Assembly (NCBI GenBank): GCA_921293015.1
Contig: OV121093.1
Coordinates: 27,352,622 to 27,416,621 of the forward strand
Source: Phorcus lineatus
Taxonomy: Eukaryota; Mollusca; Gastropoda; Trochida; Trochidae
Direction: 5' to 3'
Length of the DNA: 64,000 nucleotides
Of the stretch, positions 3,001-62,970 are shown piece after piece (the first letter of the stretch is position 1; each line of letters begins with the position of its first letter). The position numbers and the translations under genes were made by a program. A model generated the notes under the pieces. That model had not been told where the DNA came from and searched no databases. It was given only the letters and a program-made list of their open reading frames with translations.

Positions 3001-6000
3001 TCATCTGATTAGTGGATGGGGTTAGGCAAAAACGAGGGTTAGGGTTACACCAATGAGTTCTGTTGTCAAAACAGTGAAATAGAGTTTATGTAAGCATGAA
3101 TATTTATATGCAGGTTTAGTTAATGTGTGAATGTTGATTTAGACTTCATTATTCAGAATATTATGCCTTTTAAGAAAATAGCAATGTCATATAATTAGTG
3201 GATAGGGTTAGATAAAAACGAGGGTTAGGGTTACACCAATAAGTTCTGTTATCAAAACAGTAAATAAGAATTTATGAAAGCATGAATATTGTCTATGTAG
3301 GTTTAGTTAATGTTTGAATGTTGATTTAGACTTTAATATTTAGAATATTATGTCTTTTAAGAAAGTAGCAATTTCATCTGATTAGTGGATAGGGTTAGGC
3401 AAAAACGAGGGTTAGGGTTACACCAATAAGTTCTGTTATCAAAACAGTAAAGTAGAGTTTATGAAAGCATGAATATTGTCTATGCAGGTTTAGTTGATGT
3501 TTGAAAGTTGATTTAGACTTCAATATTTAGAGTATTATATCTTTTAAGAAAGTGGCAATTTCATCTGATTAGTGGATAGGGTTAGGCAAAAATGAGGGCT
3601 AGGGTTACACCAATGAGTTCTGTTGTCAAAACTGTAAAATAGAGTTTATGTAAGCATGGATATTGTCTATGCAGGTTTAGTTAATGTGTGAATGTTGATT
3701 TAGACTTCAATATTTATAATCTTATGCATTTTAAGAAAGTAGCAATTTCATCTGATTAGTGGATGGGGTTAGGCAAAAACGAGGGTTAGGGTTACACCAA
3801 TGAGTTCTGTTGTCAAAACAGTAAAATAGAGTTTATGTAAGCATGAATATTATATATGCGGATATAGTTAATGTGTGAATGTTGATTTAGACTTCATTTA
3901 TTTAGAATATTATGCCTTTAAGAAAATAGCAATTTCATCTGATTAGTGGATAGGGTTAGGGAAAAATGAGGGTTAGGGTTACACCAATGAGTTCTGTTGT
4001 CAAAACAGTGAAATAGAGTTTATGTAAGCATGAATATTTATATGCAGGTTTAGTTAATGTGTGAATGTTGATTTAGACTTCATTATTTAGAATATTATGC
4101 CTTTTAAGAAAATAGCAATGTCATCTGATTAGTGGATAGGGTTAGATAAAAACGAGGGTTAGGGTTACACCAATAAGTTCTGTTATCAAAACAGTAAATA
4201 AGAATTTATGAAAGCATGAATATTGTCTATGTAGGTTTAGTTAATGTTTGAATGTTGATTTAGACTTTAATATTTAGAATATTATGTCTTTTAAGAAAGT
4301 AGCAATTTCATCTGATTAGTGGATAGGGTTAGGCAAAAACGAGGGTTAGGGTTACACCAATAAGTTCTGTTATCAAAACAGTAAAGTAGAGTTTATGAAA
4401 GCATGAATATTGTCTATGCAGGTTTAGTTGATGTTTGAAAGTTGATTTAGACTTCAATATTTAGAGTATTATATCTTTTAAGAAAGTGGCAATTTCATCT
4501 GATTAGTGGATAGGGTTAGGCAAAAATGAGGGCTAGGGTTACACCAATGAGTTCTGTTGTCAAAACTGTAAAATAGAGTTTATGTAAGCATGGATATTGT
4601 CTATGCAGGTTTAGTTAATGTGTGAATGTTGATTTAGACTTCAATATTTATAATCTTATGCATTTTAAGAAAGTAGCAATTTCATCTGATTAGTGGATGG
4701 GGTTAGGCAAAAACGAGGGTTAGGGTTACACCAATGAGTTCTGTTGTCAAAACTGTAAAATAGAGTTTATGTAAGCATGAATATTATATATGCGGATATA
4801 GTTAATGTGTGAATGTTGATTTAGACTTCATTTATTTAGAATATTATGCCTTTAAGAAAATAGCAATTTCATCTGATTAGTGGATAGGGTTAGGGAAAAA
4901 TGAGGGTTAGGGTTACACCAATGAGTTCTGTTGTCAAAACAGTGAAATAGAGTTTATGTAAGCATGAATATTTATATGCAGGTTTAGTTAATGTGTGAAT
5001 GTTGATTTAGACTTCATTATTTAGAATATTATGCCTTTTAAGAAAATAGCAATGTCATCTGATTAGTGGATAGGGTTAGATAAAAACGAGGGTTAGGGTT
5101 ACACCAATAAGTTCTGTTATCAAAACAGTAAAGTAGAGTTTATGAAAGCATGAATATTGTCTATGCAGGTTTAGTTCATGTTTGAAAGTTGATTTAGACT
5201 TCAATATTTAGAGTATTATATCTTTTAAGAAAGGTGCAATTTCATCTGATTAGTGGATAGGGTTAGGGAAAAATGAGGGCTAGGTTTACACCAATGAGTT
5301 CTGTTGTCAAAACTGTAAAATAGAGTTTATGAAAGCATGAATATTGTCTATGCAGGTTTAGTTGATGTTTGAAAGTTGATTTAGACTTCAATATTTAGAG
5401 TATTATATCTTTTAAGAAAGTGGCAATTTCATCTGATTAGTGGATAGGGTTAGGCAAAAATGAGGGCTAGGGTTACACCAATGAGTTCTGTTGTCAAAAC
5501 TGTAAAATAGAGTTTATGTAAGCATGGATATTGTCTATGCAGGTTTAGTTAATGTGTGAATGTTGATTTAGACTTCAATATTTATAATCTTATGCATTTT
5601 AAGAAAGTAGCAATTTCATCTGATTAGTGGATGGGGTTAGGCAAAAACGAGGGTTAGGGTTACACCAATGAGTTCTGTTGTCAAAACTGTAAAATAGAGT
5701 TTATGTAAGCATGAATATTATATATGCGGATATAGTTAATGTGTGAATGTTGATTTAGACTTCATTTATTTAGAATATTATGCCTTTAGGAAAATAGCAA
5801 TTTCATCTGATTAGTGGATAGGGTTAGGGAAAAATGAGGGTTAGGGTTACACCAATGAGTTCTGTTGTCAAAACAGTGAAATAGAGTTTATGTAAGCATG
5901 AATATTTATATGCAGGTTTAGTTAATGTGTGAATGTTGATTTAGACTTCATTATTTAGAATATTATGCCTTTTAAGAAAATAGCAATGTCATCTGATTAG

Positions 6001-9000
6001 TGGATAGGGTTAGATAAAAACGAGGGTTAGGGTTACACCAATAAGTTCTGTTATCAAAACAGTAAAGTAGAGTTTATGAAAGCATGAATATTGTCTATGC
6101 AGGTTTAGTTCATGTTTGAAAGTTGATTTAGACTTCAATATTTAGAGTATTATATCTTTTAAGAAAGTGGCAATTTCATCTGATTAGTGGATAGGGTTAG
6201 GGAAAAATGAGGGCTAGGTTTACACCAATGAGTTCTGTTGTCAAAACTGTAAAATAGAGTTTATGAAAGCATGAATATTGTCTATGCAGGTTTAGTTCAT
6301 GTTTGAAAGTTGATTTAGACTTCAATATTTAGAGTATTATATCTTTTAAGAAAGTGGCAATTTCATCTGATTAGTGGATAGGGTTAGGGAAAAATGAGGG
6401 CTAGGTTTACACCAATGAGTTCTGTTATCAAAACAGTAAAATAGAGTTTATGTAAGCATGGATATTGTCTATGCAGGTTTAGTTAATGTGTGAAAGTTGA
6501 TTTAGACTTCAATATTTATAATCTTATGCATTTTAAGAAAGTAGCAATTTCATCTGATTAGTGGATGGGGTTAGGCAAAAACGAGGGTTAGGGTTACACC
6601 AATGAGTTCTGTTGTCAAAACAGTAAAATAGAGTTTATGTAAGCATGAATATTATATATGCGGATATAGTTAATGTGTGAATGTTGATTTAGACTTCATT
6701 TATTTAGAATATTATGCCTTTAAGAAAATAGCAATTTCATCTGATTAGTGGATAGGGTTAGGGAAAAATGAGGGTTAGGGTTACACCAATGAGTTCTGTT
6801 GTCAAAACTGTAAAATAGAGTTTATGTAAGCATGAATATTATATATGCGGATATAGTTAATGTGTGAATGTTGATTTAGACTTCATTTATTTAGAATATT
6901 ATGCCTTTAAGAAAATAGCAATTTCATCTGATTAGTGGATAGGGTTAGGGAAAAATGAGGGTTAGGGTTACACCAATGAGTTCTGTTGTCAAAACAGTGA
7001 AATAGAGTTTATGTAAGCATGAATATTTATATGCAGGTTTAGTTAATGTGTGAATGTTGATTTAGACTTCATTATTTAGAATATTATGCCTTTTAAGAAA
7101 ATAGCAATGTCATCTGATTAGTGGATAGGGTTAGATAAAAACGAGGGTTAGGGTTACACCAATAAGTTCTGTTATCAAAACAGTAAATAAGAATTTATGA
7201 AAGCATGAATATTGTCTATGTAGGTTTAGTTAATGTTTGAATGTTGATTTAGACTTTAATATTTAGAATATTATGTCTTTTAAGAAAGTAGCAATTTCAT
7301 CTGATTAGTGGATAGGGTTAGGCAAAAATGAGGGTTAGGGTTACACCAATAAGTTCTGTTATCAAAACAGTAAAGTAGAGTTTATGAAAGCATGAATATT
7401 GTCTATGCAGGTTTAGTTGATGTTTGAAAGTTGATTTAGACTTCAATATTTAGAGTATTATATCTTTTAAGAAAGTGGCAATTTCATCTGATTAGTGGAT
7501 AGGGTTAGGGAAAAATGAGGGCTAGGGTTACACCAATGAGTTCTGTTGTCAAAACTGTAAAATAGAGTTTATGTAAGCATGGATATTATATATGCGGATA
7601 TAGTTAATGTATGAAGATTGATTTAGATTTCATTTATTTAGAATATTATGTCTTTAAGAAAATAACAATTTCATCTGATTAGTGGATAGGGTTAGGCAAA
7701 AATGAGGAATAGGGTTAAACCATAAGTTCTGTTATCAAAACAGTAAAGTAGAGTTTCTGTGAGCATGGATTTTTATATCCAGGTTTAGTTAATGTGTGAA
7801 TGTTGATTTAGACTTCATTTATTTAGAATATTATGCCTTTTAAGAAAATAGCAATGTCATCTGATTAGTGGATAGGGCTAGGCAAAATGAGGGTTAGGGT
7901 TACAACATAAGTTCTGTTGTCAAAACTGTAAAATAGAGTTTATGTAAGCATGGATATTATATATGCGGATATAGTTAATGTATGAATGTTGATTTAGACT
8001 TCAATATTTAGAATCTTATACATTTTAAGAAAGTAGCAATTTCATCTGATTAGTGGATGGGGTTAGGCAAAAACGAGGGTTAGGGTTACACCAATGAGTT
8101 CTGTTGTCAAAACAGTAAAATAGAGTTTATGTAAGCATGAATTTTATATACGGATATAGTTAATGTGTGAATGTTGATTTAGACTTCATTTATTTAGAAT
8201 ATTATGCCTTTAAGAAAAACGCAATTTCATCTGATTAGTGGATAGGGTTAGGGAAAAATGAGGGCCAGGGTTACACCAATGAGTTCTGTTGTCAAAACAG
8301 TGAAATAGAGTTTATGTAAGCATGAATATTTAAATGCAGGTTAAGTTAATGTGTGAATGTTGATTTAGACTTCATTATTTAGAATATTATGCCTTTTAAG
8401 AAAATAGCAATTTCATCTGATTAGTGGATAGGGTTAGGCAAAAATGAGGGTTAGGGTTACACCAATGAGTTTTGTTGTCAAAACAGTAAAATAGAGCTTA
8501 TGTAAGCATGGATATTATAGATGCGGATATAGTTAATGTGTGAAGATTGATTTAGATTTCATTTATTTAGAATATTATGCCTTTAAGAAAATAACAATTG
8601 CATCTGATTAGTGGATAGGGTTAGGCAAAAACGTTGGTTAGGGTTAAACCATAAGTTCTGTTGTCGAAACAGAAAAGTAGAGTTTCTGTGAGAATGAATA
8701 TTGTCTATGCAGGTTTAGTTAATGTGTGAATGTTGATTTAGACTTCAATATTTATAATCTTATGCATTTTAAGAAAGTAGCAATTTCATCTGATTAGTGG
8801 ATGGGGTTAGGCAAAAACGAGGGTTAGAGTTACACCAATAAGTTCTGTTGTCAAAACAGTGAAATAGAGTTTCTGTAAGCATGAATATTTATATGCAGGT
8901 TTAGTTAATGTGTGAATGTTGATTTAGACTTCATTATTTAGAATATTATGCCTTTTAAGAAAATAGCAATTTCATCTGATTAGTGGATAGGGTTAGGCAA

Positions 9001-9254
9001 AAATGAAGGTTAGGGTTACAACATAAGTTCTGTTATCAAAACAGTAAAATAGAATATATGTAAGCATGCATATTTTCTATGGAGGTTTAGTTAATGTGTG
9101 AAATATGATTTAGACTTTGATTATTTAGAATATTATGTCTTTTGAGAAAAAAGCAATTTTTTCTGATTAGTGGATAGGGTTAGGCAAAAGTTAGGGTTAG
9201 GGTTACACCAATGAGTTCTGTTGTCAAAACAGTGAAATAGAGTTTATGTAAGAA
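1..9254 (+). repeat. ~185-bp satellite array with telomere-like motif
   Basis: About 50 head-to-tail monomers of roughly 183-187 bp fill the first 9.25 kb and run off the left edge. Each monomer carries a conserved GGGTTAGG, then an A-rich spacer, then GAGGGTTAGGGTTA, so two telomere-type TTAGGG words recur once per unit. The rest (for example TTCTGTTGTCAAAACAG, an imperfect dyad, and TGATTTAGACTTCA) is AT-rich. From about 3000 to 7000 the same ordered set of variant monomers recurs about every 930 bp (five monomers), for instance the variant with TTAGTTGATGTTTGAAAG at about 3490, 4420, 5350 and 7420. That is a higher-order repeat. No gene is present. A subtelomeric or pericentromeric location is plausible but inferred. 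Confidence 0.95.
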
Positions 9255-9266
9255 TGAATATTTTGG

Positions 9267-28300: not shown

Positions 28301-31300
28301 TTGCAAGAAATCTCCCGAATACCAATATATTTTCCAGCTAGAGTTGATATTTAAACACTTTTATTCCTCGGAACACTGTCGATTTTTATCAGACTTCAGT
28401 TCTCTTGCAATTCACAGTCGCAATTTTCAGTGGTCACAGAAGAAGGTCTTGAGGTGTATTTCAACATGTAAAACATATTTGTAACATGACTTCGTTATAT
28501 TCTCGATTCTGATTGGCTGAATAAAAAAAATATCCGTTTTTTGGAATGGCAATGAATACCCGCATGTAATCTAAGACGAATCACCACGAACTGATACATC
28601 GTATTTTCTAGATTCGGCCGGATTCAAGATTTTATTTCCGTCTTTATTGAAAAAAACCCGTGCTGTACTCCAATTTGACTGTGATTTATTTTTGAAGAAC
28701 GAAAACATTCTCAACTGGCTGGCTAACGCCGTCGGTTTTTAACTAAATATGCGGGTGTTGAATGGCAATGAATCTCAGAAATTTTACAAACGCAACTATT
28801 CATCCTTTAAAAGTTCAACTCGTAAATGTTTTCTACATTTTGCATATAATACCTTCAAAGTTTTGATAATGCAAAAACATTTTTTCTTGCAATTTCTGCT
28901 ATGATTTAGTTTTTAGTGTGTGTGTGGCAGAGTCAGTAATTTGAATTGTATATGATTTTATTAATAAACATGTAAAGTGTACATAATTGTTTGTGATCTT
29001 TTGATGAGAAATACTTTCTCATTACATAGAGTAAATCTAACCATTTTAAATCATTGTTTTACATTAAACATTTTATAATATGCCATAGCTCTCTAAACAA
29101 CAATTTAATCTTAGTGTAACCTTAAGTTCAGCTCTACTAACTTGCACTGCATGCTTTTCACATTGCAATCTATTCCCAAGCTGCCCCTTGCTCAGTTTCT
29201 TCATGTAAGTTCTATTGTTTGGAGTTCAGCCAAGCGTAGCATAGTCTTTATAAGGTTCATGTAAATTATATTTCATTGGCAATATTAGAAGTTGTATGAG
29301 TCAGTCACTTTGACCATGTGAGGATCATCTTGTTATTCATAATTAAAATACAGCAGTGACGTCATTGTATTGTTTCAATCATACATTATCCTACAAGAAT
29401 CTACTGCTTCTATGTGGACAATTGAGCAATAATAATTTTGAGATGGTCCCCGGAAGGGAACTGGTTTCATTATTTGATAACACAACATCATCCTCTGAAG
29501 AAATGTCTTCGAAGTGTGGATACTCGGCCATGTCTTCCCACTCAACAACAAAATTGCCATACATAATGTCTAAGTTGAATTAAGACCACCTTCCTTTTAT
29601 ACCAAATCCCAAGCTGATTGCGGTTTCAAACGTCTTGCACGTGAATTAAGCTGGTAACGTTGCACGTGCATTAAGAATGTACTAGCTAGATGGTTACATT
29701 GCACGTGCATTAAGAATGTACTGGCGAAATGGTAACGTTGCACGTGCATTAAGAATGTACCGGCAAGATGGTTACGTTGCACGTGCATTAAGAATGACCG
29801 GTGAACCAGTTGGGACCATCTCAAATTTTGTTAAAGGATTTTGTTTTATTGAAAAACGTTTTTTGTGTTATAATTATGCAATGAAATACGAATGTTATTA
29901 TCATAAACCAAAGCAGGTCATACAAAAAACACTTTAAACTAGGCTGTATTTTAAGTCAGATAACATACTCGTAACCGTACATTCGTGAAAACAATGTCCT
30001 CGCCGCTTCGCGGCTCGTACATTCTTTTTCACGAATGTACGGTTACTTGTATGTTATCCTTAACGGATCGAGACCATGGTGGTCTGGAAGTGTTTTTCAT
30101 ATTGAAAAGGTTAGTTATCTCTAGTCTTGTGTATATATTTGGTGTTGTATTAATATGTATTTCATAGTTGGTTATCATATCGGCTATAGTTAAATTATGT
30201 TCATTATTCATTATTGCTCATGTGTAAATAGTGTGTGTTGATAACTCACAGTACAGTGAGTTATGATAGTTTTATATATTAAGTTACTAGCTCGCAGTTG
30301 TGAGTTATTTAGATAATTATAGAGTTGTAATTTATATTATATATATTTCATAGAGTAAGTTATCAATTTATCTTAAGTTAAAGGTATTAATTAACTTCTA
30401 GAGATCGTACTCACAGTACAGTGAGTTCTATTTACTTTATGCTTATCGTCAAAGATTGATCTCACAGTACAGTGAGTTCTGTGGGTGTCCTATCCCTATT
30501 ACATTATATTATGATAGTTATTTTAGGTACATTTAATATTTGAGTATAATACAAAGCAGTAAGTTTACTTTCTATATAATTAACATATCAAGAAGTATCA
30601 TTACCAGTATCATTATCATAATCATTATCATAAGTGAATGTGTGAGTGAATGTGGTAAGTGTGATTGGTTATATAAGTGGTTGTGCAGTACTTTTACCGT
30701 AGTTACTTTTAATCATTTGTATATATCAACATCTGCATAAGGTATTTATTCATCCTGCAGATGACGTAGGCTACGGCGGTGGCATCACAGGTGTATGCAA
30801 GAGCACGGGTTAGACCCACCTGGTACGTTATGTTCGATGTCATTGTCACTTATCAAGTTGTATTACCTTATGTATATCTATCATGTCTTACGTCATGATT
30901 TAATGAAGTATATGCATGTGTATCATTGTAACTAATGCTGTACCGAATGTTATTATTATTATCTATTTGTAGCTATTATCATTAACATTAACGTTAGATA
31001 TGGATATGTGTATTTATTCCTTTTGTCATTTACTTAAGATAAGCCACTTGAGTATTTACTGTGTCGATGGTTTATGTATACATTTACCATATTGCATATT
31101 TAATAATTGCGAGTTTGATTTAAAGTATCAATGTGTTTAACATGTCATGTATATTATATATTGAATGGAGACTTATATTGTTATTTTAACATGTTTCAGG
31201 CTTAAAATATTGCATACCGATGTAATAAAGTCTCATGATCGAACAACCCCAGTGGTTTTGTGGTTACTCTTTAGAACCCATCCTAACGCTGCTACATGTG

Positions 31301-35035: not shown

Positions 35036-35505
35036 TCTCACGAAAAAAATATACATTTATCATCCAAAAGTGGGTTCCATAGGAGATATCGCTTGTTCGA
35101 GATCAATCGATATCTCCTGGACAGTAGATTTTTAACTGTGCCAATCTGCCGTCAAGTACATGACATCACTACTGTTTAACATACACAATAATGACGTCAC
35201 AGTGCTATGATATCACCAGCATGACGACGTCACAATTTTAAGAAATCCCCGCACTATGGGGGTTAAGGTAGTGCAGTGTTAAGAAATGCACATCTTTATG
35301 GAAATGTTATGAAATATGATTTAGGATGATAAATAGAATCTCATTCTTGTGTCTCCTGATATCAAATATATCAACACTCGTTGAAAAAAGTTAAAATAAC
35401 ATCTGGAAGTCTCAGATACGTGTCACTTTTATCAACTCGTGTTGATATATTTGATATCAGAAGACACTTGGGTGATATTCTCTATTTATTACTCGCCCGT
35501 TGAAT
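35036..35505. mobile_element. CRE/palindrome element, copy A1
   Basis: About 470 bp, homologous over its length to 45640-46108. Order: TTTATCATCCAAAA; a hairpin AGGAGATATCGCTTG / CAATCGATATCTCCT (35081-35118); several TGACGTCA or TGACATCA motifs (35120-35240); ATGATAAATAGAATCTCA; then a 148-bp palindrome (35335-35482) with arms GATATCAAATATATCAACA. Mirrored CTCG tetramers in this palindrome are same-sense, and the inner core is decayed. It ends ACTCGCC. No coding capacity; a non-autonomous mobile element of unknown class. Confidence 0.75.
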
Positions 35506-43500: not shown

Positions 43501-46500
43501 TTGACAAATATATAAAACTCTTCCTTATGCACCACTAAACTTGTATATTTCACGAGTCATTACTATGTCAAGTTCATTGATGCTAATATATTAACATTTT
43601 TATTATATGTTTAGTATGTATTGTTTCTAGTATAAGTGGCAATAAGATGATTAGGTTGGATTAAAAGTTTGGAAGGGGGACATCGCTGTGCATCACATGC
43701 ATATATCTCTAGTTCATACATAGAGATTACTACACTCGCAAGTGTGTCATATGATATGTACGAAACGAATGTCAAAAGTTGTATTACCCGAGCGAGAGCG
43801 AGGGTAATACAACATTTTGACACGAGTTTCGTATATATCATATGACACACTTGCGAGTGTAATAATTCCTTTATTATCCATTAAGTGTTGTTAGAATTCC
43901 CCCGAAAACGATGAATTTAGCATACGAAACGCATGAAGTAGAAACTAGGTCATTGCGCACTGATACTTTACGGCGAGGTCAGTGACAGGAAATATAGTGC
44001 ACAGTTAAATCTCTAGCTTCGTCTAATAGAGAGAAACATACTGGGAAAATAACGGAAAATTATGACCATTTACTTTACTCGTTTACGTTATGTAAGTAAT
44101 ATATCGACACTGCTTTCACAAATAGCGAAACTGTTACATCGCTGTGGAAAGATAAAAGTTATCATAGTAGTGACGCGGCCATTTTAACGTGTTGATCGAC
44201 GTTGACGCAAGACCGGTAGAATGAGTTATTCAGGTGAAGATAAATGACAGAAAGAGTTGAAATTCAACTTAACATGTTTAATAACTTTTGAATATTAACA
44301 TGGCATCAGCGAGGAAACGTTAGTGTTTACGTTGGAAGGTTTTATTCGTCATCTGACGAGAGGTCGAGGGGACGTTAGATAGATTCTCCGTTATTTGGCT
44401 TGAGGCGATGTAGGCGACATGCACTCAGTCACACCGGCGCCCGACCAGATAGTGATGTTGAGTAAAAATCTCAAACGATAACGAGGAATTTGTTAGATTG
44501 TACCTGCTTCCTTACGAATCACAAACACATCAAAACTTCCAAGTGGCTGAATTATGTCAACAATCTTAACAACAATCTATATTTTACAAGAGAGTTGACA
44601 GGTGAAAACGTCGCCATATTGTCGGCTAGCTGCAACGTAAATGTGTGAAAATTTTACAACCAAATTTTGCTGGAAAACTGGAAAATAACGTATACAAAGT
44701 TAATATTTGTTGACGTTGGTTTATTTAGTGACAATTTATAAATAAAGAAAGCGTTTATTGTTTTTATGATTCCCGACTTGTAATCTCGTCTCATCGTGAT
44801 TGAAAACCGTGAATGAAGTTTACGCTACGTAGTAAAAACTTATGAATGAAGAAAGTAGTCCCTCGTCTCGTTCACAGAGGTCAAGGTCATATTTCAACCA
44901 ATCAGATACGCTAAAAGTGATATGTGCACATGTGCTCGTATCGAAAATATTAACTCGCTTATCGTCAACCATATGGATAATAATAGTTTTAATCACATAA
45001 TACGCAATCCAAACTAGTATGAAATAGATCTATAGATAGTATAGTATAGATAGTATCTTTTGATGTCACAATTGATATAAATGCTGGCGATGGTGGTTTT
45101 GATAATAGATTTTCTGAAATAATTTTATTCGTATTATCTTCATAACATGGACAGACAAATGTGAGGTGAACTCCATCCCTAATTTCAGAACTACACAATT
45201 GGCATATACGTTCGCTTTTAATAATGGACATTTTCTTCCTTTGTTCATAACTATATCTATCAAGCCTAGGCTGCAACGTGTGAATATGATTAAGAATAAT
45301 CTAGTAGTTTTACATTTACGAAGGTTAAATGGCACTCTGGTTGCATGCAGTGATGTCTTGAACGATTTATACAGGTCATATTCATGGTAAAACAAGTTTA
45401 CTGACCGTTCACGTAATTCCATTAAAACATTTTCTATATCACCAACACCCTGTTGTACCCCAAAAAACCCATAACCATGAGAATAGAAACATTTGTAATA
45501 TTTGATGCCCAAGATTCCTTATCCATATTGTCGAGATGGGTCATTATATGATATGCAATTTTAGGAAGACGTCTTTCGTGCATTTTGAGTATTTCAAGCC
45601 AATACTTCAAAAATCTAATTTGTGAATTTATATATAAAGGATATATATTTATCATCCAAAACTCTGTTCCACAGGAGATATCGCTTGTGGAAGATCAAGC
45701 GATATCTCCTAGGAGATATCTTTTTGGCAGTAGATTTTGAACAATGCCCCTCTGACGTGAAGTATATGACATCACAGTTGTTTTACACCATCAAGTAATG
45801 ACATCACAATGCTATGACGTCATAAACACTACGACGTCACAATGCTATGACATCACCGCAATTGGAGTCTTAGGGCAGCAGGGTGTACAGTAATGTTAAT
45901 TTATCAATCAAATGTAATGAAAAATGATTTTGGATGATAAATAGAATCTCACCCTCGTGTCTTCTGATATCAAATATATCAACACTCGTTGATAAAAGTA
46001 AAATATCCTCGGCAAGCCTCGGATATTTGTACCTTTTATCAACTCGTGTTGATATATTTGATATCAGAAGATACTTGGGTGAGATTCTCTATATCTCCCA
46101 CACTCGCCATAAACCATACAAATTGGTGTAGTTGTTGCTACACCTAAGAACTTTTTACATACTAACTACATACTTTCCTTCATGCTTTTCGTGTCTACAG
46201 AATACAGTAAAGTCAGTAAAGAGCATTGACCTCAGCTAAAAGAACACTGCACTAAAACATTTCGATTTGGCTTTTTTTCAAAGGTTATTCTGAGACATGT
46301 TTTAAAGCATATTCTAGCACTTGACTGCAGAGTATGTTGTTTTGGAAACACAAACATAGTTTTTTCGTCCACAGTTATTCAAAATCAGGTATTGACTTAC
46401 TTTTTTTCCATATTTATATTTTCTCTCAATTCACAATATAAACATCCATTAAAACCATAAACGATGACAGTTCTTATATAGGAAATGATTATGTTTGTAA

Positions 46501-49500
46501 AGTCCTTTTTTAAAACATTCTCATGAAACTATTATTTTTCTATAATTACCGCAGTGTTTCCTTGATAACAGCACGTAGATAGAGGCATTGTTGAAAAGTC
46601 GAATACGAAACTTGGTCCTCGTAAACGTCAATGTCTTGTAGTTCACTGCGCAGACGCGATTGTACTTCCGGGTTAACCGAGAGTTCATGGAGCACCCAAA
46701 GGAGGGTGCTAGTGGTCTGGTATATGTACAAAGGATAAAAATGGTGAATAGGCGATTGAATGATAGGATGTAATGTGCTATCAGCAATATGTCCGATGAT
46801 TACCATGTGGATGTTGCCATCCAAAAGATATTGGTAGATCGAAAATAGATCGAAAGGATGAGGGAACAGACAGACAGGCATAGTCAGACATAGAGAGAAG
46901 GTTTAAGAACGATTGATATTTAGTCTTGTGTCTGGAAAAGACTAAAGCGAAATTTTTGCCATGGAAACATAACACATGTCATAACACATTGCTTAATAAT
47001 ATATATGTATTTCAAAGCAATCATGAATTCATCATATCATATAACTCGTATCCATATTAAGTAATATCTTCACGCTGCATTATATCACATCATAGTATCA
47101 AGCATTATCTCTCGAGAATCTAGCTATACAACATCACAAGGAGGAATAATATTTCAAATCACACCTTTTTATATCACAGCGCAAATAATATGAAGTCATG
47201 TTCTTTATCTTTTGTTTTTAGTAAATTACGATGTCGTGGAATGAATTATAACCCTAATATCTACATCTTTAGCGACACAATTTACTCTTTAAACATAATC
47301 TGTTCGTGCAGAAAGGAATATATATATATATACATCAAAAGATTATGTATTATATTGATAATCATTCGGTGGCAAAGGATAAAATTTAATCAAATAAGGT
47401 TATTTAAAATATTATCGATGTAGATAGTTTTAATATGATGTAGGTACACAGGGCATACGAGCAAAAGATTATATGTGTCTTCCTATTTAAGCGACAAAGA
47501 TTACATATTTCTCTTCATTGACAATTTTAACCCTAATATTTACATCTTTAGCGACACAATTTACTCTTTAAACATAATCTGTCCGTGCAGAAAGGAATAT
47601 ATATATGTACATAAAAAGATAAAGGATAAAAGTTCATCAGAGGAACATCTAAAACGTGAAAGCGTAATTCGGAATTTTTCAACAGTAAAATTTGATGAAT
47701 AATTCGCCATGATTATTTCAGATATAATTTATAATAGAAACACTTGTTTGTGTCATCCTAGTCTGAAAATATTTATCTTTCAATCTCTCTGTCAATGAAA
47801 GAATAAAGGTCGATTTTGAGTACACATTATAGCTGTTCCAGATATGGCCAAAACCACTCTTGAAGATTAATTCTCTGATATCGGTCACTAAATTTCATCT
47901 GCCATTATCATAATATCATCATATTGTAAACCTTTTTAAGTAACCTGTATCAGGACATGTCAATAAGTCTCAACCAATATTTAATACCTTGTACATTTGA
48001 ATGTACATGAAGAGGAAATCTTCCGGATTCTCAATACACCATAGGACTAGATGCGTTTATCTTAATGCGTTAATCTGCGAGCATCGGCTTGAACTTGAAC
48101 ATGGTGGTACTGTGCAGAAATTCTGTGTAGCATTGCACCTACGGACCTCGTGATCGGAGGCCAAACGCGCTACACCAGGGCTTCCCTCTGTTATTGGATA
48201 ACCAAAGTTAATCCATGATGATGACGTCACTCTATTGTGTGAACAGTGGATTATTTCAAAGAATCCACTGCACATGGACTTGTCCAGTCTGGAGGGGTGT
48301 CAGGCATTTCACACAAACCTATTCCGCATATCTTATCAGTAATGGAAAATGCATGAGGAGCAGTGGATTCTTTAAAATAATCAACGAGCCCCGAGTATCT
48401 TATCACTGTGCCATTAAAAAACAAAACAAGTGAAGCATTATTTCAATTTATTTGACATTCAGACTGATAGTGATATTCAGACCATCTGATGATCTGGAGG
48501 CTTTTTCGCAAGGTTGCGTCTCGGAGCAGTTGATGACGTTGCTGACTCGTTTTCTCATCGTCTCATCGGTTCTTTTGTAATCTCTGACAGCCTCACTTTT
48601 ATGCCCTGTCACCTCACACACAAGTTGTTCATCCACCCCTGCCCGATACAGTCTGGTAGCTGCAGTTGCCCGTAGAGAATGGTTTGTTCTGTGGCCCTGG
48701 AGTCCAGCCTCTGCACATAGTTTAGTGACGGTACTGCGAAGTTGGTTGATCCCAATCGGCGCCGATGAGAACCAAATATCTCCTTTCGGTTTCCCTAAAG
48801 GACGGAGGTAAAAAGCTATGGCCGACTTTTCATCTGGACTGAAATATAAAAATAAACATTAGAAGTGTAGGCAGACTGAAAGCAACATTTTAGTTTGTAG
48901 AATAGAGCAAGGTTTAACTGTAAAGAATTTACGATAATATATATTTTGATAAAAGCCAGATATATAGGATGTAGACTAGACGATTTAAACTATTTTGACC
49001 AAAGCATATATTACTTCAACCACTATCAAAATTGTTAATATACCAGATACCAATTATCATAAGACATGTTTAGTATATGTTCAATATACATTCTGCTTAT
49101 ATAGTTTCGATAATCCAGAGATTATTCATGGTACGTTTAGAATACGTGTCATAGTATTACCTACCAGTGTTGCACATACAACTTAAAGATCCTGATGAGA
49201 CATCGCTCTGGTTTCACTTTATTGGGAAAGGCGTAGACAACTTTCTGTTCGATTTTCCTACTCTTTAGGCCACCCTGGTTTGTTTTGGAAACATCTCTAT
49301 ATCTCAAAATCTCTGTGCCATCTTCAGATTGTACTAGTGTTAACTGAGGATTATTCCAGCGAAGATTCCTGTGTTCCTGCCCAGCTCGAAAGGCGAAGTT
49401 TAAGCCAACCAAATAGACAAGAGAATCAAGCAGTTTCCTTGGCGTGTCCACACCGAGTACACCCTTCTCCCAAAGCATGTTCTCCTCCGATTCCGTGATA

Positions 49501-52500
49501 ATGAGCGCCTTGCGTTTTTCTGTTCCAATACCAGAAGAGGATCTCTCCTTCATGACATGGTCAAGGGTATTTCTGACTTGCATGAATTCGTCATCACTTA
49601 AGAACTTGAAGTACTTGCCCCTTTGTTCAAAGAATAGCTGCAGCTGAATGACTATCTCATAGAGGGTCTGCGCAGGATACTCCTCCCCGTTTACCTTCTT
49701 CATTTCGCAGATTAACCGGGATATACAGAAATTCAATTCATCCGTCGTCATATAGTTTAGTTCCGAGTCGATGATGCTGATGCTGGGATCGGTACGAGCA
49801 ATCTTGTTTCTTTCGGCCTTCCAGGTTTCGAAAATGTTCACTGCCCACTTTATTTTCTTCTCCGTGTTTTGAGCTAAACTGAAAAACAAATTTAATCAAT
49901 TTTTAATTCTAGGGGGACAATAATTACGCATTTTATAAATACGATAATATACAGTTTTCTCACAAATTGATAATTATTATTGCACTTTTGAATTTTTAAT
50001 TACGACGGTTTACAATGGTTCAAAAGGTTTTTAATTTTGATGCATTTTTCTAAGTGTGGAACTAAAATTGATAACCAAAAGCCATTTCAAATAGTTGCTA
50101 CGAATATATAAAACTATCATTTTTTTCATAATATATCGACATGCATGGGACAGTATTAAGAAATGAAAAGCGAGATTAAATACCTTCTTACACTCTTCTT
50201 AGCGATTTCCTCATCCCCACAGATTTGCAGTCGGGTTGTTTGGGATTTTTCAAAGGTCTCCAAACTCTTGATGAGTAATAGGTCGTCTTCCGAACTCTGT
50301 ACGTCAGATTCGAGTTGAACATCTCCTGCGTCTGAAATGCACAATTTAAAATTATAATGTATGATTCTTTTTACATCAACCAGCGTCTCAAATAAAGACT
50401 AAAATTAATCCTTACAATAAACATATCTGTTGTCTACTCCACCAGTCTTGAAACAAAATGTGAATCAAACAATCATATTAACCTTTCAGATTTTTACTTT
50501 CTCTTGGATAAATAAACACAAAATCATAAACTGTTTTCACTTACCCTTTAGTGGTATCAGGTTGTCTTCCTCTCCGCTGCTTTCCTCGCGGAAAGTAGAT
50601 TGTGTGCATGCAATATCGTCTAAATCCATTGCCGTCGTTTCAACCCAGCCATCACAGTTGAAATGAAATGATCAAGTTTTTATACACGTGGTATCAAACT
50701 GATCGGATTCTGCAAGCAATTCTCGAGGCGCACGTGCATGGAAGAATCCATTTGATAAGGCGGTAGCGTCATGTCCGATCTCCGATGAGTGGGCACCGAA
50801 ATGTGCGCTAATTAAACATCGAGCGCCAAGTAATGTATGATATATATAAGAAAATAATTAACTGATAGATAATTATAATTTCGTGACGTCATACATGGAT
50901 TAAGATGGAGAATGCATTCGGAGCAGTGGATTCTTTAAAATAATCAACTCGCCCCTTCGGGGCTCGTTGATTATTTTAAAGAATCCACTGCTCCTCATGC
51001 ATTCTCCATTACACAATAGATTCGTGCACAAATTCTTATCCATATGTTTGAACCTACCGTGTCAACACTGGCGAGGATCAGATCGGTGATGTTTATGTGG
51101 ACCTCGGCCAAGGTCAAGGTCTGCAGCTGTAACAGATGACCCAGTACGCATGCGCTATCCAGACTTCCGTCCAGGCACTTCTCGATGTAACGTTTGGCTA
51201 AAGCACAAGTAGAGTAGAAATAACAATATGACCTTTGGAATGATAATCGTAACTAAGTTGTCAAATATGACAAAAGTATCAGATAACTCATAAATGGTGA
51301 GCGCGAAAGGAACGTGGTATCACTTCTACATTTATTTATTGATTATGAGTTTGTGGGTAAAACGTGAGTATTTACTTATGATAAATGTTTATTAATCTAA
51401 TTAAGTGATATGATATTTGCGAAATAAGTTTATTTAATATTCATCAAGGGGTAGTGAGAGTTACATATACCAATACATTTGCACATTTGTTAGATATAAA
51501 TAATTTGACAGAACTACAAGTGTCATAATGAGTCTCTTTTGTTACATGATAAACATGTTTCACTCTGCACGGTTTTAAATTGCACCAGTCTCTATCACTG
51601 GCTAATTTAAACCTTGCTGCCACAAACTCAAAATTCGTGTTTTGGGTGCAGCGCCCTCTTCGGCGAAACGCTTTAATTTTTATATGATTTCTCATTGGAC
51701 TATCGCGATACGTCGCTGCAGCCTGGACGACAAACAAAGAAAAGATGGGGGAAATGCGGCAAGGCCTATCTTAGCAAGTCATTGGGGCTGGCAAAAGTAT
51801 AGGCCATGCGCGGGCAGATGACACTGAAGTATAGGTATATAAAAAAAATTTCACGTGAATCTTGAGCAGATCCAAAGAAAAATTGGCACGTGCATCACGT
51901 GAAGTTTCTAAGGTTCTGTGGCAATTGGGAAAATCACGTGCATTTCGTGAATATTCGTGTAGGTTTAAATTTAAGTAACTCGCACGTGCAGCTTATGCAT
52001 TATGCGGCATTGTGGTGCTTAATTGGACGTTCGATAATATAATAAGGCAGTGTACACTCTCGAAGTTTCAGAGTGATAGTTTACGCAGTCTTTATAAGGA
52101 CAATAAATTAGTAAAAAGAATTAAAGTTATCAAGAAAATATAAGGACTCACTTATGGAAAGTAACCTATCCCATCGTGCACTGTGTCTCCACCAAGCCGG
52201 AAGTACCCCCCAAAGACACGTTGGCAATGATAGAAGAACTTTCGCATCTTTGAAATTCTCTCTGAAAAGTTTCAAACCAGTAACATAACTGTTTAAGGGG
52301 CTATATTTAGGTAAGGTTTGAGAGAAGTCAACGCTAATTGATTACCATCTTCCTGGCTTTTACGATAACAACTTATTCGTCCATGATTGGAAGTGCTGTG
52401 ATTACAACAATTCAACATCACCACATGTTCCGTGTATATTTGAAGTTCGTTTTTAACAAACAAACCGATATAATTTTGAATTCAAGATGGTTAATGTGAT

Positions 52501-56079: not shown

Positions 56080-56450
56080 TTTTACTTTATTACTCGCCCG
56101 TGTAAGATACCGCAGTGTAATATTTATACGGCGATATTAAACTAGTGTAATACCGCTCCCCGTATGACGTCATAATATTGTGTGGTTGTGACGTCACAAT
56201 CTTAGCACCGTCGCCTCGATGGCGGCTTAGTCGCGGAAATGCTTCGTTCAGTACACTTTCGGTAAAAATGCTTGATTACTGAGGTCAAGTAATAAACAGA
56301 ATACTAAACTTCCTTCCATTTAATACTATTTTTATTAAACTCGTTAATGATTAGGTATCAAACTCGCTTTCGCTCGTTTTATACTTAATCATCAACTCGT
56401 TTAATAAAAATAGTATTAAATGGAAGGTCGTTTAGTATCCTCTATGACCT
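56080..56450. mobile_element. CRE/palindrome element C with palindrome P5
   Basis: Starts with ATTACTCGCCCGTG, has TATGACGTCATAAT and TGTGACGTCACAAT (56160-56200), then AATAAACAGAATACTAAAC and the palindrome 56301-56438. CTCG at 56340-56343 mirrors 56396-56399, and 56363-56366 mirrors 56373-56376, all same-sense. RC arms otherwise match at most positions (TTAATACTATTTTTATTAAA). It has the same order of parts as A1 and A2, but unrelated arm sequence. Confidence 0.8.
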
Positions 56451-56624
56451 ATACACTATTTAATCAAAGCCATCCTAACTGAATATGCTGCTCAGTTGGA
56501 ACATTTCGTCTGATGTCTGGTTGTAATGACGTTAACTGTCATAAAAGTTAATATCAAAATACAAGAAAATTTAAATTAAAAAACGTCAATTATACCATCA
56601 TCTTGTATAAATTTACGTACGAAA

Positions 56625-57545
56625 TACGTAATAGACCTCCCATGCGGTAAAATGTAATAGACATCATTTGCTGTACAATGTAATAGTCTTCACTTGCGGT
56701 AAAATGGAATAGACTTCATTTGCGGTAAAATGTAATAGTCTTCACTTGCTGTACAATGTAATAGTCTTCACTTGCGGTAAAATGTAATAGACTTCAATTG
56801 CGGTAAAATGTAATAGTCTTCACTTGCGGTAAAATGTAATAGTCTTCACTTGCGGTAAAATGTAATAGTCTTCACTTGCGGTAAAATGTAATAGTCTTCA
56901 CTTGCGGTAAAATGTAATAGACTTCACTTGCGGTAAAATGTAATAGACTTCAATTGCGGTAAAATGTAATAGACTTCAATTGCGGTAAAATGTAATAGAC
57001 TTCAATTGCGGTAAAATGTAATAGACTACACTTGCGGTAAAATATAATAGTCTTCATTTTCGGTAAAATTTAACAGAATTTACCTTCGGTAAAATTTAAC
57101 AGAATTTACCTTCGATAAAATGTAACACACTTCACTTGCGGTAAAATGTAATAGTCTTCACTTGCGGTAAAATGTAATAGTCTTCACTTGCGGTAAAATG
57201 TAATAGACTTCACTTGCGGTAAAATGTAATAGACTTCAATTGCGGTAAAATTTAATAGTTTTCACTTGCGGTACAATGAAATTGACTACACTTGCGGTAA
57301 AATGTAACGGACTTTACCTGCGGTAAAATGTAACAGACTTCACCTGCGGTAAAATATAATAGTCTTCACTTGCGGTACAATGTAATAGACTACACTTGCG
57401 GTAAAAATGTAATATTCTTCATTTGCAGTCAAATGTAACAGACTTTACCTGCGGTAAAATGTAACAGACTTCACCTGTGGTTTAATGTAATAGTCTTCGC
57501 TTGCGGTACAATGTAATAGTCTTTACTTGCGGTAAAATGTAATGT
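56625..57545. repeat. 26-bp minisatellite
   Basis: About 34 tandem units of CTTCACTTGCGGTAAAATGT plus AATAGT/AATAGA, with substitutions. Three further units are at 57755-57840 after a 200-bp gap. No frame or promoter sense is evident. Confidence 0.95.
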
Positions 57546-60572: not shown

Positions 60573-61198
60573 CAGGTGCATATCAAAAGTTTGTTCACTT
60601 ATGACTGTATCTTAGTGCAAATATCATGTAATTTGGGTTTGGTTTGAACGTCAATAAAATAACTTCAGCAGAACTGAAAAGGATCTCCTATTGTCAATGT
60701 GTAAAATTGCCATTTTCCAATTTTTTTGTCTGATTGTCTCGTCTCTGGTGCAAAAATTCGAATTTTGGCATTATCAAATAGACAGAAGGGGTCACATTTT
60801 CGAAATTCCGATTTCCTAAAATTCAAATGAAATATTTAATTTCGACTCTCTGAGAACAAAATCAGCAAAATCATATTGACTTAATACAAACGAACAAACA
60901 TGACTTGTGTTTGAAGCTGTTGATCACTAATTGAGTTTTTTGTAGAAAGAAATAAAAATTACTGTTTTCAAAATTTTGACCCCTGGTCACTTCAGTGACC
61001 TGCCAAAAACTATTACGATTAACTGTTGTATACCGCATACGATTGCGTAAAGGTGAAATGGATATTCTCTTCTGTATTGAAATTTCAAAATAATCCGTTT
61101 CGTTTTCGCAATGCTACGTTGCCACAAAGACATGCCAAATTATATGATATTTGCACTACGTTACGCAGGTATGTGAACAAACTTTTGGTATGCAGCTG
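60573..61198. mobile_element. Tc1/mariner-type MITE, copy B
   Basis: 626 bp, homologous to 23009-23601 along its length, with termini CAGGTGCATATCAAAAGTTT and the complement of TTTTGGTATGCAGCTG, flanked by TA. Its right terminus is included in the tandem duplication that follows. Confidence 0.85.
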
Positions 61199-61204
61199 TA
61201 TATT

Positions 61205-61660
61205 TATAGAGTAGCCTTTGAGATGGTAAGTTGTCTTGACCTTTGAAAAGAGTAGTCCAAAGTACGGTATGTCGTCTTGACCCCCTAACAGAGTAGCCTT
61301 TGAGATGGTATGTTGTCACGACCTCTGAACAGAGTTGCTTTTGAGATGGTATGTTGTCTTAATTGACCTCTGATCAGAGTAGCCAATGGTGTGGTTTGAA
61401 ATCGTTACCTCTGAACAGAGTAGCCTATGAGATGGTATGTTGTCTTGACCTCTGAACATAGTAGCCTTTGAGATGATATGTTTTCTTGACTTCTGACCAG
61501 AGTACCCAATGGTCTGGTATAAAGTCGTGACCTCTGAACACAGTAGCCTATGAGATGGTATGTTGTCACGACCTCTAAACAGAGTAGCCTTTGAGATGAT
61601 TTGTTGTCTTGACCTCTGGACAGGATAGCAAATAGTGTTATATGAAGTCATGGCCTCTGA
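61205..61660. repeat. ~41-bp minisatellite, copy 1
   Basis: About ten units of GAGTAGCCTTTGAGATGGTA plus TGTTGTCTTGACCTCTGAACA with variants. Minus-strand frames through it are repetitive artefacts. Confidence 0.93.
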
Positions 61661-61831
61661 ACATACTATCCTATTGGATGTTTATATTACAGGCTTCGTT
61701 ATATCGTTATCATGCTGAACGCCCTGCATAGAGGATGATATCTAATCTTTAAAAATGATTTTAGATGATACCGGCGGAAATCGACGGTAAAACGGGAATG
61801 ACTATTCCTTTAAATTTTTGTTTTGTTTTTC

Positions 61832-62126
61832 ATGGACAGACCCTTGATGGCAACATCGAAAAAGATCAAAGAGGACCATCTGACCTGCAGTATTTGTTAC
61901 GAGCTGTTCCAGCGGCCAGTTACACTAACTTGTCAACATAACTTCTGCCATAACTGTTTGAAGCGTTATCTACAAGCAAAGGAGCAAGTTTTGATGAACA
62001 GGGCCATCCCCTGTCCCACGTGTAGACAAGAGACCCCAGTACCTCAACCTGACAGACCCGTGGAAGAGTGGGCGGGGCAGCTGAAACCAGGGCTGCTTCT
62101 AACTGGACTCATGGACTCGCTTCAAG
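61832..62126 (+). CDS. RING-finger (TRIM-type) first coding exon
   Basis: Likely an E3 ubiquitin ligase N-terminus. From the ATG at 61832 (or 61847, MATSKK, if the CAG at 61837-61839 is a splice acceptor) the exon encodes a C3HC4 RING: LTCSIC, then TCQHNFCHNC, then CPTC, all eight zinc ligands present. A linker ending LLTGLMDSLQ follows. The exon ends at a GT donor (62127, CAAG|GTAAAT). Typical TRIM proteins continue with B-boxes and a coiled coil; none is in the window to 64000, so the gene is partial here or broken. A weak candidate next exon with compatible phase is 63532-63583. The donor is duplicated at 62970/62971. Confidence 0.75.
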
Positions 62127-62194
62127 GTAAATACGAAGTAGTCTTACCTCAAACATCATGTGTTTTGTAATAAAGTACAGTTTTGAACTATCAT

Positions 62195-62380
62195 AAGCAC
62201 CCAGGTAGCACACCTACATCGGCCCGATGTCGGCTGAACAGCGGCACCGTCGGCACTTGTTTTACATCGGCAAACTGCGTCGGGCCGACATCGGGCTGAT
62301 GAGTAAACTTGGAGTTTATAGAATTCTTATATAGAATCCTTCTAGATAAATGATACGGCCCCTTTTTAGTGACGAAATGG
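62195..62380. repeat. ATCGGC-type inverted repeat block, copy 1
   Basis: CATCGGCCCGATGTCGGC and the complementary GGGCCGACATCGGGCTGATG lie about 60 bp apart, forming a foldback likely of MITE origin. It lies downstream of the RING exon and is included in the duplication (copy 2 at 63045-63222). Confidence 0.7.
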
Positions 62381-62387
62381 TATACGA

Positions 62388-62845
62388 CGGTATGCAGCTG
62401 TATATTTATAGAGTAGCCTTTGAGATGGTAAGTTGTCTTGACCTTTGAAAAGAGTAGTCCAAAGTACGGTATGTCGTCTTGACCTCTTAACAGAGTAGCC
62501 TTTGAGATGGTATGTTGTCACGACCTCTGAACAGAGTTGCTTTTGAGATGGTATGTTGTCTTGACCTCTGATCAGAGTAGCCAATGGTGTGGTTTGAAAT
62601 CGTTACCTCTGAACAGAGTAGCCTATGAGATGGTATGTTGTCTTGACCTCTGAACATAGTAGCCTTTGAGATGATATGTTTTCTTGACTTCTGACCAGAG
62701 TACCCAATGGTCTGGTATAAAGTCGTGACCTCTGAACACAGTAGCCTATGAGATGGTATGTTGTCACGACCTCTAAACAGAGTAGCCTTTGAGATGATTT
62801 GTTGTCTTGACCTCTGGACAGGATAGCAAATAGTGTTATATGAGA
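62388..62845. repeat. ~41-bp minisatellite, copy 2
   Basis: Almost base-for-base copy of 61190-61645, including the MITE terminus GGTATGCAGCTGTA at its left end. Confidence 0.93.
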
Positions 62846-62862
62846 CACATAAGAGAGACAAG

Positions 62863-62970
62863 AGACAAGACAAGAGACCCCAGTACCTCAACCTGACAGA
62901 CCCGTGGAAGAGTGGGCGGGGCAGCTGAAACCAGGGCTGCTTCTAACTGGACTCATGGACTCGCTTCAAG
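62863..62970 (+). pseudogene. Truncated duplicate of the RING exon
   Basis: Repeats only the last part of the RING exon (from GACAAGAGACCCCAGTACC through the GT donor), without the start codon or any zinc ligand. It is joined directly to the second minisatellite copy. Downstream sequence to 63222 matches copy 1 with a single visible difference. Confidence 0.85.

Follow-up and report, generated by a model that had tools for sequence, protein, structure and literature searches.

How does a tyrosine recombinase gene lying beside a large palindrome come to sit in a mollusc genome, and where does the DNA that carries it begin and end? We examined this in a stretch of 64,000 nucleotides from Phorcus lineatus (assembly GCA_921293015.1, contig OV121093.1, positions 27,352,622 to 27,416,621), the whole of which we call the window, in which an element that we name E1 carries a DUF3504-type recombinase gene. 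We found that E1 is a recently active Crypton-type transposon, the same element being present at many places, and we give a probability of roughly 0.5 to the reading that its attachment site, like the attC sites of integrons, acts as a folded hairpin and is exchanged with a strand bias. One assembly was searched (957.8 Mb, 74 contigs), and the ends were fixed by searching the genome with each end and by aligning 15 copies with their flanks; the best 40 candidates of each search were scored, and the copy number is at least 15.

The ends common to these copies, together with empty sites, delimit an element of 2,805 bp (48208-51012; gene on the minus strand, palindrome end at the right), which in the window opens with TTAATCCATGATG and closes with CTCCATTAC, the flanks differing among the 15 copies. 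An earlier note had placed the outer edges at two inverted occurrences of TCTATTGTGT; the copies put them at 48208 and 51012 instead, and the left occurrence (48231) lies 23 bp inside E1, while only 2 bp of the right one (51011-51020) belong to the element, the rest being flanking host DNA not shared by the other 14 copies. Allowing one mismatch, TCTATTGTGT is no commoner in the window than chance would have it (6 found, 7.56 expected), and it was rejected as a terminus. Read inward, the true termini are TTAATCC and GTAATGG; there are no matching terminal inverted repeats and no target duplication, and E1 is not a cut-and-paste transposon with terminal inverted repeats.

Pairwise identity among the copies ranges from 99.21 to 100% (mean 99.60 over 105 pairs), and 11/15 are 2,771-2,808 bp long. 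Copy L067 holds a 3,020-bp insert unrelated to E1, with long inverted ends and the short direct repeat AGTCATT on both sides, and copies L071, L072 and L075 are shortened, each by its own internal deletion. Because these three deletions all differ, we rejected a non-autonomous form of E1 with shared breakpoints, and there is therefore no evidence that any of the three moved in deleted form. Older relatives of the palindrome end occur at no fewer than 10 further places (77-83% identity) and those of the opposite end, which we call B, at no fewer than 11 (78-88%); at L055, around position 1400-1560, several degraded B ends follow one another about 37 bp apart, succeeded by a longer E1-like stretch. 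In the viral contigs searched, no relative was found.

The only gene in E1 is the tyrosine recombinase. Its spliced open frame of 445 aa, built on predicted splice sites only, runs on the minus strand from the ATG at 50629 to a stop codon ending at 48448, through predicted exons at 50545-50629, 50184-50331, 49165-49878 and 48448-48838; the third matches DUF3504 (1.4e-20) and QRICH1 (3.2e-12), and the fourth matches Phage_integrase (1.8e-10) and contains HSLR, TGH and DYKR. Judged by eye, these three motifs and the R of FRAGQEH look like the catalytic residues. The full reading frame is kept in 9/15 copies, one of which has lost the HxxR arginine. It is the DUF3504 match that points to a putative place of E1 in the CryptonA group. 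A hairpin at one end and a missing target duplication resemble Helitrons; the sole gene is a tyrosine recombinase without Rep/helicase, and E1 is not a Helitron. That gene and palindromic end together form an autonomous mobile element, as had been proposed from the sequence of the window, is supported by 15 near-identical dispersed copies, by empty counterparts for 5/15 sites and by the frames kept in 9/15.

Those empty counterparts, found within repeats, reveal that insertion adds exactly the element, without duplication or net change. The clearest lies in the window itself (28956-29275, plus strand), where a copy of the repeat entered by L070 is identical at 310/320 positions with no gaps and reads AGT|GTAACC at the junction. 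For L071, an 83% relative within its own flank has no shift at the junction and 7 gap positions elsewhere, and for L067, L069 and L074, for which only coordinates are given, the joined flanks match across the junction at 92-99%, mostly with exactly equal lengths. The searches for the last three considered the best 40 places, all of them from the repeats entered by these copies, and the result covers 5/15 sites.

Upon aligning the 15 flanks, we obtained the target consensus RTTAY-N6-RTAAY. The palindrome-side flank reads RTAAY, with A at +3 in 15/15, T at +2 in 11/15 and A at +4 in 10/15, and the B-side flank has T at -9 in 11/15 and T at -10 in 10/15. A scan for mirrored half-sites over spacers of 0-23 scored +0.41 at spacer 6 and -3.02 or less at all others (p = 2e-4, the lowest value that 5,000 shuffles allow); with its mirrored half-site at spacer 6, RTTAY-N6-RTAAY is therefore a normal tyrosine-recombinase core. 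The two spacers are distributed unequally: in 15/15 copies the 6-bp spacer of the target stays at the B end, and the element's own spacer, CATTAC (51007-51012, plus strand), stays at the palindrome end. The copies share descent, and no exact probability attaches to this one-sidedness. Exchange of two strands between unlike spacers should yield both arrangements, as in Tn916; the one-sided spacer fits exchange of one strand only, as indirect evidence.

We next describe the ends themselves. The terminal palindrome (50905-51009) has 51-nt arms that are 92% complementary around a 3-nt loop; TC/TC mismatches stand at -16 and -47, counted from the crossover, and its single strand is predicted to fold at -51.3 kcal/mol (z -14.96; 0/200 shuffles equally stable). 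As the earlier note had it, this complete palindrome stands upstream of the ATG, at 276 bp, and an inverted single arm lies 53 bp beyond the stop. The latter (48339-48394, plus strand), inside the B end, pairs with the palindrome arm, 48330-48394 matching 50957-51021 over 65 nt at 92%. The two do not bracket the gene as a pair of equivalent ends, the real ends being asymmetric, with the palindrome at one and B at the other. Terminus B, TTAATCCATGATGATGACGTCAC, occupies 48208-48230 (plus strand), and an inverted copy of it lies at the inner base of the palindrome (50883-50903, minus strand). The motif GTGGATTCTTTAAAATAATCAAC occurs four times in the window with up to 3 mismatches, against a mean of 0.00 in 100 shuffles; all four copies are in E1, two near each end, the fourth being a short hairpin adjoining B (48245-48271, minus strand). 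The young copies L066 and L069 carry deletions at the palindrome's apex or inner base, in keeping with the instability expected of hairpins, and direct repeats TGATAAGATA flank the single arm (48338-48404). Palindromes of the TGACGTCA type lie near the palindrome side of E1 and of two further families, 2 and 4 (35220-35235, 45800-45860, 50883-50890 and 56154-56190), and could possibly be a host-factor site.

The arrangement of E1 recurs in other families. In each, the element ends on one side in a palindrome, against whose inner base lies an inverted copy of the other end, B; this layout is common to E1, to a second DUF3504 family (F-d) and to the high-copy families 2, 3 and 4, whose sizes are numbers of candidates and not counts. 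In E1, the inner sequence CTCCAT-C-TTAATCCATG corresponds to CTCCAT-TAC|TTAATCCATG at the joined ends, and in family 2, for which the best 40 of 2,136 first-look candidates were scored, GAGATTCTATTTATCATCC corresponds to GAGATTCTCTAT|TTTATCATCC. Family 2 is represented in the window by a gene-less element with its palindrome at the right end (45648-46092, plus strand) and by a second copy (35056-35485, plus strand) whose palindrome-side flank resembles the B of family 4. For families 3 and 4, the other ends were written down from the layout rule before the search and were then found. The family 3 element (43720-44983, minus strand) has its palindrome at the left end (43726-43866), where 39/39 matches start at query 205-223, and at its predicted right end 21/39 matches stop exactly and 36/39 stop within 382-390. 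The family 4 element (56086-56445, plus strand) has its palindrome at the right end (56301-56438), where 26/39 matches stop at exactly 296 and all within 296-323; at the left end, which was predicted correctly by sequence though with a coordinate 5 bp off, 25/39 start at 137-138, none later and 14 earlier, 7/39 copies beginning about 10 bp further out (query 127-128). A family 4 end at 54473, from a first search with B, was rejected, the end being at 56086/56087.

Two DUF3504 families were examined besides E1. It had been anticipated that other DUF3504 loci would carry the palindrome and the inverted ends; F-d does have a palindrome at its 5' end, and in F-b we found none in the 741 bp covered, a stretch made of exons and introns. 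The F-d protein is 41% identical to that of E1 over residues 59-397, and its palindrome of 103 bp starts 5 bp inside the 5' end, a boundary shared to the base by 14/19 non-self full matches (query 52) and to within 7 bp by 19/19 (45-52). The 3' end of F-d is its inner B, inverted and slightly different (CATACACA vs CATACGCA, from one tandem junction and one single copy). An alternative 3' end, ...TGCGTATGACAAA, ran beyond the crossover and was rejected for ...GTGTATG, which is true to within 1 bp; TGCGTATGACAAA has 25 exact matches vs 17 for a reversed control, 3 of the 25 being the inner copy beside F-d palindromes.

When inner and terminal B were compared, p was 1.1e-4 for E1, 2.8e-4, 8.5e-5 and 5.6e-4 for families 2, 3 and 4, and 6.8e-3 for F-d (combined p = 1.1e-12); these values hold with an offset range that was widened for all five families after a narrower run had given p = 0.66 for family 4, whose B start, one base late, was also moved after that value was seen. 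The gene-less palindromes of the window had been supposed to be non-autonomous partners of E1, which proved wrong in detail, the three others that were searched belonging to families with ends of their own. Around three more palindromes (14123, 26974 and 29959), the best candidate for B within 6 kb did not exceed the best of the shuffles, or did so by very little (14123: 25 vs 24). Members of these families also lie head to tail, family 2 beside family 2 (L081), family 2 beside a family-4-like B end (window position 35485) and F-d beside F-d with a period of 3,454 bp (C29:24238635, L084), and from such neighbours it seems that B acts as a target half-site. Five F-b genes form a cluster at C13:26558804-26576761, same-strand neighbours being about 3,783-3,803 bp apart by their coordinates.

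Upon joining their ends, all five families are predicted to fold as one long hairpin, B'-A-loop-A'-B, with a small bulge at the crossover; for E1, 0/300 random pieces paired as many B bases. A TC/TC mismatch (GA/GA on the other strand) recurs in all five families, at -50 in F-d and at -47 in the other four, both copies of family 2 included, and a further one lies at -70 to -72 in families 2 (1/2 copies), 3 and 4; the mismatch at -16 in E1 takes an altered form in families 2 and 4. The CTCG of the palindrome arm, to which the earlier note had drawn attention, corresponds to these mismatches. The GA/GA strand is the more stable in 6/6 sequences, by 0.2 (family 2), 0.5 (E1) and up to 6.2 kcal/mol (family 4). 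In 2/15 E1 copies mismatches have been turned into perfect pairs, both of them in L065 and the -16 one in L070, and arm-templated correction thus seems to occur in these palindromes. Given such correction, the recurring mismatches look selected, and the two copies suggest that mismatches in all five families are under selection.

These observations can be joined in a mechanism. The recombinase would join both ends of E1 into a circle, one strand of whose junction (B'-A-loop-A'-crossover-B) would fold into a hairpin; its stem would restore the recombination core, and the small bulge would lie at the crossover. That single strand would then be exchanged with the duplex core of a target, and replication would complete the product; after one-strand exchange and replication, the target spacer would in every case lie at one end and the element spacer at the opposite one. 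The layout hints that E1-like elements may insert through folded DNA, a route hitherto known from bacteria. More tentatively, and with somewhat less confidence than we place in the reading of E1 itself, animal Cryptons in general would use a folded single-strand (or cruciform) site, recognised largely by shape and formed when the ends join, with one-strand exchange into duplex targets; this would be a eukaryotic counterpart of integron cassette recombination, and the high-copy, gene-less repeats with palindromic ends in this genome would have arisen from it.

Several results weigh against the folded-site reading. The circle, the single-strand intermediate, the strand bias and the recombination of E1 are all deduced from sequence. 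Among solved structures, the E1 protein has no significant integrase relative (XerA E 0.16, IntI4 E 0.64). In families 2, 3 and 4, the number of paired B bases is reached by 15, 18 and 25, respectively, of 300 random pieces put in place of B, and in F-d a random B does as well in 119/300, the fold adding nothing by this measure; the -16 mismatch is absent from family 3 and F-d, and the margin of 0.5 kcal/mol between the strands of E1 is small. In family 2, no left half-site at a 6-bp spacing was found (best spacer 1, p 0.056, 9 sites), its left flank favouring an ATA that adjoins the element end. Families 2, 3 and 4 all end in CTCTAT with a similar B and are not independent because they share these ends; E1 has ends unlike theirs, and F-d has ends unlike either. 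No recombinase gene was seen for families 2, 3 and 4 in the window, and a DUF3504 enzyme is no more than a hypothetical mover for them.

The chief alternative is ordinary double-strand recombination, in which the arms, the single arm and the fourth motif would be sites on duplex DNA to which the recombinase or a host factor binds, comparable to the arm sites of lambda Int, with CTCG as part of the bound motif and the one-sided spacer arising from biased heteroduplex repair or from a non-textbook exchange. Palindromes are common binding sites, and four copies of one motif, two near each end, as well as a target made of a normal half-site, a 6-bp spacer and a half-site, are what this explanation would lead us to expect. 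We consider it rather unlikely, though still a serious contender: the arm sequences of E1, F-d and families 2-4 differ, yet the pairing, the bulge and the -47 mismatch recur, and a one-sided spacer in 15/15 copies would require a strong repair bias. A more improbable account holds that the palindrome arose through an inverted duplication of the end that adjoins B and serves expression, as promoter, terminator or insulator, or nothing at all, the recombinase needing only B and the spacer. The position 276 bp upstream of the ATG suits it, and quasi-palindromes can persist by arm-templated correction, as in L065 and L070; against it, the recurring TC/TC mismatches ought to disappear under such correction, and the terminal palindrome is kept in families 2, 3 and 4, though no recombinase gene accompanies them in the window.

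It is very improbable that the palindrome is a site of the telomere-resolvase type, belonging to a linear form with closed hairpin ends or to foldback amplification. The portion of the literature drawn on here describes tyrosine-recombinase-like telomere resolvases that act on palindromes with a 6-bp stagger (PMC13236599), and the E1 palindrome is near-perfect and about 100 bp long; against this, the crossover is at the outer base of the palindrome and not at its centre, a complete palindrome is present at one end only, and insertion is exact and single-copy. Finally, a fixed, domesticated DUF3504 host gene amid repeats might be suspected from the QRICH1 domain match and from QRICH1 being the sole significant relative among solved structures (2.9e-13). 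The 15 near-identical dispersed copies, the empty sites and the complete catalytic motifs refute it, leaving it next to no weight, and domesticated DUF3504 genes are described, in the part of the survey used here, as having lost catalytic residues (PMC3212892).

Beyond these elements, the window holds a transferrin exon (1.8e-50) and a weak match to cytochrome P450 (1.4e-4, below the cut-off of Pfam). A tandem array with a 187-bp unit fills positions 1-9262 (about 50 copies, 90% matches) with a strong skew of G over C (0.43-0.46 over 1-8000), and further arrays lie at 56493-57494 (26-bp unit, beginning about 50 bp from the family 4 end) and 61187-62884 (41-bp unit).

The ends, the target choice and the multiplication of animal Cryptons have been obscure because no terminal repeats were seen, none being reported in the consulted part of the Crypton survey (PMC3212892). 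E1 gives exact ends, an exact target and a young family with full-frame copies, and by the layout rule two ends in other families were predicted before they had been seen. Should the folded-site step be true, animals have a form of tyrosine recombination that recognises structure and selects a strand, and the palindrome-ended repeats, a large class, gain a likely origin; if it is false, the exact ends and target still make integration of animal Cryptons directly testable.

We compared E1 with known systems, in each case with the part of the source available to us. In the open-access literature as far as it was covered, we found no account of Cryptons with hairpins, palindromes or folded sites, or of such elements in bivalves or molluscs, an absence that does not establish novelty. 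The Cryptons of animals (CryptonA; Kojima and Jurka 2011, PMC3212892) are like E1 in having a DUF3504-type recombinase as sole gene, non-autonomous relatives, no target duplication and no simple terminal repeats, whereas the terminal palindrome, the inverted inner copy of B and the RTTAY-N6-RTAAY target set E1 apart from those described there. Cryptons of fungi and oomycetes are likewise DNA transposons with a tyrosine recombinase for which a circle has been proposed, and they have 4- to 6-bp terminal direct repeats, of which E1 has none (PMC3212892). The attC site of integrons is, like the end of E1, a palindrome acted on by a tyrosine recombinase. It folds from a single strand, as the E1 site would, and is recognised by structure more than by sequence, with bases and a core spacer that stay unpaired; it is bacterial, its cassette carries no recombinase, and the folding shown for attC is a prediction for E1 (PMC2727003). 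The strand-biased circularizing integrative elements (SE elements) also use tyrosine recombinases and a 6-bp spacer, and form a circle from one strand, where for E1 a circle would be postulated; they are bacterial, their spacer comes from the flanks in contrast to the constant CATTAC, and the portion of the report drawn on mentions no terminal hairpin (PMC9345347). Starships, by comparison, are giant and fungal, with direct repeats of 2-12 bp in 19/20 against none in E1, and are like E1 in being transposons of eukaryotes that use a tyrosine recombinase; the target of Hephaestus, TTAC(N7)A, recalls the E1 end ATTAC (PMC12153272).

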